A stretch of 40,064 bases of DNA from NCBI GenBank assembly GCA_022616315.1, contig JAKEEX010000464.1, positions 1 through 40,064 on the forward strand, written 5' to 3'. Numbering within the stretch: position 1 is the first letter of the stretch; every line of letters starts with the position of its first letter. The stretch comes from Myxococcaceae bacterium. GTDB taxonomy: Bacteria > Myxococcota > Myxococcia > Myxococcales > Myxococcaceae. Under the pieces are notes generated by a model. That model had not been told where the DNA came from and ran no database searches. It saw only the letters and a list, made by a program, of their open reading frames with translations. Position numbers and translations under genes: made by a program. Positions 23,796-25,667 of this stretch are shown here, one piece after another.

Positions 23796-24191
23796 CTAGA
23801 TGGGGTCGGTGGGGACCACGGAGAACGCGGCCCGCGCGTCGTTGCAGTGCGGGTACACCTCGAACACGCCGTGCGCGCCGGAGGCCCGCAGCACCGCCGC
23901 GAGGTAGCTGGACAGGCCGGACAGCTTCACGTCCCCGCCGGCGCGCCGGAGCGCCTCCACGCGCGGAAGCAGCGGGCGGACACCGCGGTAGTCCAGGTGG
24001 GGGACCTCCGTGAAGTCCAGCACCACCTGCGTGACGCCGCGCTGGAGCAGCCGGAACAGCTCGTCACCCACCTCGGCGAGCTCCTTCACGCCCAGCTCAC
24101 CCTCGAGCAGCAACGTGAGGACGTGCCCGGACGCGCCGCGCTCGTCGCGGTCCCACACCTGCTCCACCTGACGCTCGCTCCACTGCTCCAT
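23796..24191 (-). CDS. STAS-domain protein inserted between mraZ and rsmH
   Basis: 131 aa with one STAS fold (about 22-115): HVLTLLLEGELGVKELAEVG, VTQVVLDFTEVPHLDYRGV, GGDVKLSGLSSYLAAVLRAS, and a C-terminal GVFEVYPHCNDARAAF. The family includes anti-anti-sigma factors such as SpoIIAA, where the loop before helix 2 reads DSSG and the Ser is phosphorylated by an anti-sigma kinase. Here that loop is DYRG (67-70), so the Ser is replaced and the protein should not be switched this way. It may act as a docking or scaffolding module. The ATG at 24191 has AGAGGGAGGGAC upstream. It lies in the operon between mraZ (39 bp) and rsmH (14 bp), not a standard dcw member. No anti-sigma kinase is nearby. Partner unknown. 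Confidence 0.88.
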   Translation of the reverse strand: MEQWSERQVEQVWDRDERGASGHVLTLLLEGELGVKELAEVGDELFRLLQRGVTQVVLDFTEVPHLDYRGVRPLLPRVEALRRAGGDVKLSGLSSYLAAVLRASGAHGVFEVYPHCNDARAAFSVVPTDPI

Positions 24192-24230: not shown

Positions 24231-24683
24231 CTACCCCTGCCGCAGCTCCCCGAGCACCCGCGTCAGCTCGGCCGAGTCCACCGCCGTGCGGGCCTCGTCC
24301 TGCGCCTTGCGCCAGCCGTCCGCGCTCCACAGCTCGATGACCTTCACCATCCCCGCCCACACCACGTCCTTCTCCAGCCCCGCGTGAGTCCGTAAGGACG
24401 GGGGCACCAGGAGCCGCCCGAGCCTGTCGAGCGTCACCTCCTGCGCCGGCGCCACGTAGAGGCGCATCAGCGTCTTCACCCCGGGCTCCATGGGGTTGCG
24501 CTTGGCCAGGGCCGCCTCGAGCGCCTCCCACTCGCGCACCGGATACGCGTGCAGACACGCGTCGAGCGCCGTCGTGAGGATGAGGCGCTCGTCGTAGGCG
24601 CCCACGAGCGTGTCGCGCAGCTTCGCCGGCAGGCTCGTGCGGCCCTTCGCGTCAATCTGGTGCTCGAAGACTCCACGGAACAC
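24231..24683 (-). CDS. mraZ: Transcriptional regulator MraZ
   Basis: 150 aa, matching the family length (about 143-152). Two MraZ/AbrB-like swapped-hairpin halves are seen, each with a DxxxR motif: [15 protein letters not shown] near the N-terminus and [18 protein letters not shown] in the second half. MraZ is the first dcw gene and in E. coli represses the cluster by binding 10 bp spaced TGGGN repeats. The start is GTG at 24683 ([15 protein letters not shown]), aligning with the family start MFRG; its ribosome site is weak. A GTG at 24752 would add 23 unconserved residues and lies inside the predicted operator, about 5 nt from the predicted transcription start, so I reject it. Confidence 0.94.
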
Positions 24684-24726
24684 GCGCTTGGGGCAGCCCA
24701 GGGTTGGGGCAAGGTGCGTGAGGCGG

Positions 24727-24752
24727 ATCCACCGCTTCCCACTCCTTGCCAC
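24727..24752 (-). promoter_or_regulatory. Predicted MraZ operator (three GTGG repeats, 10 bp period)
   Basis: On the mraZ strand, GTGGCA (24747-24752), GTGGGA (24737-24742) and GTGGAT (24727-24732) recur at exactly 10 bp, so TGGNN boxes are parted by 5 nt. This is the architecture known for MraZ sites in E. coli (TGGGN boxes with 5 nt spacers). They lie between the predicted transcription start (about 24757) and the mraZ GTG, suited to autorepression. Confidence 0.7.
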
Positions 24753-24763
24753 TTCGGCCCGCG

Positions 24764-24792
24764 AAGCTAACGGTGGCGATCCACCCGGTCAA
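24764..24792 (-). promoter_or_regulatory. Predicted mraZ/dcw promoter
   Basis: -35 TTGACC (24787-24792), 17 bp spacer, -10 TAGCTT (24764-24769) on the minus strand; start point near 24757. The spacer holds the inverted repeat GGTGG-ATCG-CCACC (plus-strand arms 24772-24776 and 24781-24785), including a GTGGAT box. It is the only good sigma70-like match upstream of mraZ that I saw. Confidence 0.6.
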
Positions 24793-24803
24793 GAAACCGG
24801 GAG

Positions 24804-24832
24804 TTGTCCACAGCTATCCACAGCAATCCACA
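24804..24832. promoter_or_regulatory. Three tandem TCCACA repeats, 10 bp period (second MraZ-like cluster or DnaA boxes)
   Basis: Plus strand TTGTCCACA (24804-24812), CTATCCACA (24814-24822) and CAATCCACA (24824-24832), each followed by G. On the mraZ strand they read TGTGGA at 10 bp steps, the same geometry as the operator downstream of the promoter. The first two also differ by one base from the DnaA box TTATCCACA. They lie just upstream of the mraZ -35 and in the leader region of the divergent PilZ gene. Confidence 0.6.
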
Positions 24833-24938
24833 GGCTGTCGCGTGGATGCAGCGTGTCGTGGAGGCAGCGCGCGTCGCGCCTTTCCTCGCACATCGAATCG
24901 CTGGTACCTCACGGGGTTCCACGCCCAAGAGGGGGGAG

Positions 24939-25667
24939 ATGGACCTTCCACGCTCGATGTCCGGCAAAGCTCCCGTGCGACTGAGGGTCAGCTACCGGAG
25001 CCCCGCGTCGCTGCTCGGGGAGCTGACCCGGAGCGTGAACAAGGGCGAGGTCCAGCTGCCGAGCCAGCGCGAGGTGGCGGTGGGCACGCGCTTCGTGTTC
25101 GAGCTGCACGCCTCGGGGCTGGACACACCCGTGGAGGTCCTGGGCGAGGTGGGGCGCGTGCTCCGGCTCGGGCCCGAAAGCTACCTCCTGAGCGTCCGGT
25201 ACGAGGCGGGCGCGGACCGCACCGGCGTTGACTCGGCGCTGGCGCGCATCTTCGAGGCGCACCGGGACGAGCAGACGCGTCGCTACCCGCGCATCCCCTT
25301 CCACCTGCGCACGCAGGAGGAGAGTGCGGACTCACCCACGTACGTCGTGCGCAACATCTCGCGCGGAGGCGCGGGGCTGACGGTGGCGGCGTCGCACATG
25401 CCAGGGCACGTGCGTCCCGGACAGCCGGTGCTCCTCGAGATGTGGCTCGAGGACGGCGTGCTGCCGCTCCACGGCGAGGTGGCCTGGGTCTACGCACCGG
25501 CGGGCGGTGTCCAGGGCTTCGCGCCCGCGCTCGGCATTCAATTCGGGCGTCTCCGGCCCGAGCTCACCGCGCGCCTGGACCGCGTTCTCGCCCTCCGTGC
25601 ACTTCCACCACCGATGCTCCGCTCGCGCCTCAGCTTCGGACTGGACGCGGTGGGCCGCATGCCCTGA
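24939..25667 (+). CDS. PilZ-domain protein, predicted c-di-GMP effector
   Basis: 242 aa from the ATG at 24939 (AAGAGGGGGGAG upstream; ATG 24957 is an alternative). The second half is a PilZ domain with the c-di-GMP-binding RRYPR at 114-118 and N139-x-S141-x-x-G144 (RNISRGGAGL), then RPGQPVLLEMWL and ALGIQFGRL. The first half (about 12-100: VRLRVSYRSPASLLGELTRS, VGTRFVFELHASG) looks like a second, degenerate PilZ-like barrel without the RxxxR motif, as in other myxobacterial tandem PilZ proteins. It has no signal peptide or membrane segment, so it is cytoplasmic. It is divergent from mraZ and shares its regulatory region. A longer open frame upstream would run through the repeat cluster and is not conserved. 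Confidence 0.88.
   Translation: MDLPRSMSGKAPVRLRVSYRSPASLLGELTRSVNKGEVQLPSQREVAVGTRFVFELHASGLDTPVEVLGEVGRVLRLGPESYLLSVRYEAGADRTGVDSALARIFEAHRDEQTRRYPRIPFHLRTQEESADSPTYVVRNISRGGAGLTVAASHMPGHVRPGQPVLLEMWLEDGVLPLHGEVAWVYAPAGGVQGFAPALGIQFGRLRPELTARLDRVLALRALPPPMLRSRLSFGLDAVGRMP

Follow-up and report, generated by a model that had tools for sequence, protein, structure and literature searches.

A predicted MraZ operator and a lineage-specific upstream repeat array at the mraZ promoter of a Myxococcaceae bacterium

Introduction

When two clusters of the same short repeat flank a single promoter, do they answer to one regulator or are they different in kind? This question is raised by the mraZ locus of a Myxococcaceae bacterium (assembly GCA_022616315.1, 5.54 Mb in 912 contigs), whose relatives within the family include Myxococcus, Corallococcus, Archangium and Pyxidicoccus. 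The stretch analysed here (the window, 40,064 nucleotides of contig JAKEEX010000464.1) carries on its minus strand mraZ, a STAS-domain gene, rsmH and an ftsI-like penicillin-binding protein gene, in that order, and thus the head of the dcw cluster. The STAS-domain gene (23796-24191, minus strand), placed between mraZ and rsmH, is an insertion in the usual dcw order and is also found in a genus that lacks mraZ. On the same strand, a TTGACC-17-TAGCTT promoter stands between two GTGG triplets, each with a spacing of exactly 10 bp. A first-pass annotation of this DNA read both as MraZ sites that could form a looped or bidirectional switch, perhaps controlling the divergent PilZ gene as well. The features of the region are as follows.

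24231..24683, minus strand: mraZ, GTG start at 24683, 150 aa (VFRGVFEH...), Pfam MraZ 2.2e-29
24723..24752, minus strand: predicted MraZ operator, GTGGCAAGGA, GTGGGAAGCG, GTGGATCCGC, in 10-bp phase directly downstream of the -10 element
24764..24769, minus strand: -10 element TAGCTT of the dcw promoter; TATTTT in most relatives, TAGCTT also in G008/L039
24781..24784, minus strand: seventh GTGG, located between the -35 and -10 elements; forms one half of the inverted repeat GGTGG-ATCG-CCACC
24787..24792, minus strand: -35 element TTGACC of the dcw promoter; the TTTCTTGACC block is conserved across the family
24804..24833, minus strand: upstream array, CTGTGGATTG, CTGTGGATAG, CTGTGGACAA; final GTGG 19 bp before the -35 element, flanks not MraZ-like
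24804..24812, plus strand: TTGTCCACA, array unit 3, the only array unit that fits the family DnaA box TT[C/T/G]TCCACA
24939..25667, plus strand: PilZ-domain gene divergent from mraZ, ATG at 24939, Pfam PilZ 8e-11

Results and Discussion

The repeats at the promoter

The promoter named by the first-pass annotation was recovered, with its -35 and -10 elements at 24792-24787 and 24769-24764 of the minus strand and a spacer of 17 nt. The phased triplets on its two sides were also confirmed, the GTGG cores starting at 24752, 24742 and 24732 in the downstream cluster and at 24831, 24821 and 24811 in the upstream one (all minus strand), and both clusters are called as period-10 repeats by TRF. The seventh GTGG is likewise present in the spacer (start 24784, minus strand); it was rejected as a real MraZ box, having no constant phase in relatives when these were compared by eye, and is probably incidental.

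Within the window the pattern GTGG-N6-GTGG-N6-GTGG matches twice, at the two clusters of the mraZ promoter and nowhere else; no match is expected, and none occurred in any of 100 dinucleotide shuffles. Across the 5.54-Mb assembly the pattern has eight matches against four for its reversed control, and a lone 10-bp-phased GTGG triplet is therefore unremarkable genome-wide, while two of them within 80 bp at mraZ are remarkable. In spite of their shared core, the downstream and upstream clusters differ in kind.

The downstream cluster is a predicted MraZ operator

Loci of mraZ were gathered from 60 relatives and 59 named genome records, and those in which mraZ was unrecognised by the start-motif search (e.g. 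L009, L018, L044-L046, L048 and L049) were excluded. An operator was counted where three boxes in 10-bp phase, matching the GTGG core in no fewer than 11 of its 12 bases, stood upstream of mraZ. Such a triplet was present in all 77 non-redundant related mraZ loci. The first two boxes of the family operators read [A/G]GTGGNAA; for the third, GTGGATC or GCGGATCAG is common. The downstream cluster of the window has three GTGG-type boxes in 10-bp phase just past the promoter of an mraZ-led dcw operon, and its score on the profile built from the other operators is 37.4 bits, where their own leave-one-out median is 33.4 bits.

A further comparison is offered by three genomes, G028, G083 and G084, all large and from a single genus, which keep rsmH in an otherwise complete dcw head and have no MraZ match; a search by tblastn for an MraZ remnant in these mraZ-less genomes gave none that was credible. 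G011, a sister that has mraZ, shares their dcw promoter almost base for base over a stretch that begins upstream of the -35 element, takes in the -10 element and runs as far as ...TATTTTCCGCCGCCCG. After this point unrelated sequence takes the place of the GTGG boxes of G011, and the STAS start lies only 244-245 bp from the TTTCTTGACC block at the -35 element, as against 608 bp in G011. Because the boxes vanish with mraZ while the promoter, the GGGTAGG motif of its spacer and a CTGTTGC element upstream remain, there is strong comparative evidence that MraZ reads the downstream triplet rather than the upstream region. The loss of mraZ with retention of the promoter and erasure of the operator amounts to a natural deletion experiment, and it backs the operator assignment without bench work.

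Thus, a cluster kept with mraZ in 77 of 77 loci and gone with it in three genomes bears out the earlier proposal of MraZ binding downstream of the promoter, and its identification as a canonical, ordinary MraZ operator is strongly supported by sequence comparison; these myxobacteria would then have the standard one. An MraZ oligomer is predicted to occupy the three phased GTGG boxes directly downstream of the -10 element and, by analogy with E. coli, would most likely repress its own operon by blocking the promoter.

The upstream array lacks the hallmarks of an MraZ site

The upstream array, which reads TTGTCCACAG CTATCCACAG CAATCCACAG on the plus strand, keeps the 10-bp phase exactly (GTGG starts as given above). 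In the form TGTGGAY-N3-TGTGGAY-N3-TGTGGAY it is unique in the source genome at up to one mismatch, and the CTGTGGAY array, also at up to one mismatch, is absent from the 95 other family genomes, the source being the one positive of 96. The repeats had been expected to be conserved wherever mraZ is; this expectation holds for the downstream cluster (77 of 77 loci) and fails for the upstream one.

The bases around the GTGG cores differ as well. A T precedes GTGG in three of three array units, as against none of 154 first and second boxes and four of 77 third boxes of the family operators. None of the three units has a purine before GTGG or an A at +5 (two bases after GTGG), whereas 84 of 85 family operators have at least two purines before GTGG and all 85 have at least one A at +5. 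Outside GTGG the array scores -28.5 bits on an MraZ profile that, being built from homologous loci, may reflect descent as well as specificity; this is below all 85 operators, of which the worst scores -10.4, and resembles what is seen in random sequence (mean -22.6) and in the other six GTGG triplets of the genome, taken as chance occurrences (-28.0 to -6.3).

What stands at this position in relatives is also informative. In 47 aligned core-family promoters, those without mraZ included, the sequence CTGTTGC[A/G]..TTTCTTGACC is found where the array sits in the window, and as this element persists without mraZ the position is one that hosts MraZ-independent elements. The CTGTTGC[A/G] element lies directly upstream of the dcw -35 element in core Myxococcaceae and is not known to be bound by any protein; in another clade its place is taken by CTACAGGCTGGATCAT.

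From these comparisons the array is most likely a lineage-specific, non-MraZ site that lies about 45 to 75 bp ahead of the predicted start of transcription and either is used by a different DNA-binding protein (among named candidates DnaA comes first, though weakly) or is a neutral tandem repeat; the choice between these two is a matter of inference. Considered jointly with the downstream assignment, we regard it as likely that the downstream cluster is the MraZ operator and the upstream array a lineage-specific feature of one or the other kind. Three explanations of the array are weighed below: a neutral repeat, which is a serious rival, a site for another protein, DnaA foremost, and a deviant MraZ site, which is less likely.

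A neutral short tandem repeat or a mobile-element relic, arisen by slippage of the 10-bp unit CTGTGGATNG and bound by no protein, is a possibility to be taken seriously, short of being probable. The array is found in one family genome only, as such an origin would suggest. Moreover, exact 10-bp-phased TGTGGA triplets occur in just three of 195 phylum genomes (the source, G088 and G093), and those outside the source follow IS3-family transposase genes (L206 and L208) or, at L209 of G088, lie inside a longer tandem repeat; an extra C before TGTGGA is common to all of them. At L206 (G088) and L208 (G093) the triplets, CTGTGGANNN in 10-bp phase, stand just past the stop of the transposase gene. 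Against a neutral origin, the intergenic region is short and the array lies immediately next to a promoter within it. Its likeness to the insertion sequence copies stops at the TCCACAG core, with matches at six of 15 and three of 15 other positions. The window contains no such element, and the source genome has only a distant one (37%); a relic of the IS3 family, though conceivable, is not supported.

That the array is a set of DnaA boxes coupling the dcw promoter to replication initiation is a tentative suggestion and on balance doubtful. Like DnaA boxes (TTATCCACA; TT[C/T/G]TCCACA near dnaA in the family), all three units contain TCCACA on the plus strand, and one of the three, TTGTCCACA, fits the family pattern, which was derived from the dnaA loci of the family, the source genome's own dnaA being cut by a contig end. 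DnaA is moreover known to act as a transcription factor, and in Caulobacter it binds the promoter region of ftsZ (PMC8203912). The array differs, however, in that the other two units, CTATCCACA and CAATCCACA, are poor and lack the initial TT, in its tight 10-bp phase where the DnaA sites at dnaA in the family are some 20-22 bp apart, and in having no conservation at mraZ; in E. coli, DnaA boxes upstream of ftsZ are irrelevant to ftsZ transcription (PMC8203912). With a single good unit, a firm call of a DnaA array was rejected, and a literature search for DnaA at mraZ found nothing pertinent among the titles and abstracts listed. The further proposal that this lineage gained a DnaA-responsive array upstream of the -35 element, opposite the MraZ operator, such that replication initiation and MraZ would jointly set division gene expression, is improbable. 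At the dnaA loci themselves (L055-L084), the DnaA motif that reads GGKDHSTV in other members of the order is FNKDHSTV or FGKDHSTV in many Myxococcaceae, and the boxes in the vicinity of the gene lean towards TTCTCCACA and TTTTCCACA.

That the array is a second MraZ operator whose flanks deviate, forming a two-site looped or bidirectional switch with the first, is unlikely. The array does share the core, the 10-bp phase and the strand of the operator, its last unit standing 59 bp from the first box, and a second MraZ-like cluster exists in the same intergenic region of six relatives, albeit on the other strand. A T before GTGG is also seen in the outer MraZ boxes of some relatives (TGTGGATC in Archangium, TGTGGCA in L004 and L016). 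Nevertheless, the want of a purine at -1 and of an A at +5 in every unit and the occurrence of the array in one of 96 family genomes speak against MraZ binding, and with centres 79 bp apart, or about 7.5 helical turns, the two clusters would face opposite sides of the helix. On flanks and conservation a second MraZ cluster was therefore rejected as the best reading. The earlier proposal of an MraZ site upstream of the promoter is thus left without support, given the absence of the array from the 95 other family genomes, its lack of MraZ flank bases and the MraZ-independent element that relatives carry there, and a looped or bidirectional MraZ switch around this one promoter is not supported here. 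Two same-strand triplets within 80 bp, from a genome total of eight, would arise with a chance of about 4e-4 by our own arithmetic if the other triplets are placed at random, which weighs against the clusters being unrelated, and the coincidence of phase, strand and place between them remains unexplained.

A reversed cluster in Archangium-type relatives

The nearest thing to a bidirectional arrangement is found in relatives. Five Archangium-type loci (L014, L017, L108, L118 and L176) and L005 carry two 10-bp-phased boxes (GTGGGA...GTGGA) on the opposite strand, the final GTGG lying 20 bp (21 in L014) upstream of a divergent TTGACC-17-CAT(T/A)AC promoter, a spacing that is constant though the intervening bases vary. 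In five of the six loci the next gene is a small lipoprotein-like gene (...CGGGAKLGGGK...). Profile scoring finds MraZ-like flanks in most of these clusters, which appear to be a genuine second MraZ-like cluster and possibly a second MraZ target, a hint that the reach of MraZ in these bacteria may extend beyond the dcw operon. The reversed two-box cluster is absent from genome G060 and from the window.

The window array resembles the reversed cluster in that it, too, adds another phased GTGG cluster to this intergenic region, and in its distance from TTGACC (19 bp from its final GTGG, near the 20-21 bp of the Archangium cluster). It differs in that the reversed cluster is on the opposite strand, has mostly MraZ-like flanks and belongs to the divergent promoter.

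Comparison with known MraZ sites

MraZ of Burkholderia binds a fragment arranged like the window operator, with four 7-nt repeats separated by 3-nt spacers downstream of the -10 element (PMC7761207). As described in PMC7761207 and PMC8475190, through which the E. coli results of Eraso et al. 2014 are cited here, the dcw operators of E. coli and Burkholderia cenocepacia share with the window GTG repeats at 10-bp phase, downstream of the -10 element at the first dcw gene, which encodes MraZ. The MraZ site of Mollicutes, given in PMC8475190 after Fisunov et al. 2016 as direct repeats of AAAGTG[T/G], is like the window operator in its purine-rich base before GTG and its direct repeats at the mraZ promoter, and unlike the upstream array, in which a T precedes GTG in every unit. 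The window operator has three boxes where Burkholderia has four, and the locus departs from the E. coli and Burkholderia cenocepacia sites, as these are summarised in the two papers, by an extra, probably non-MraZ array upstream of the -35 element.
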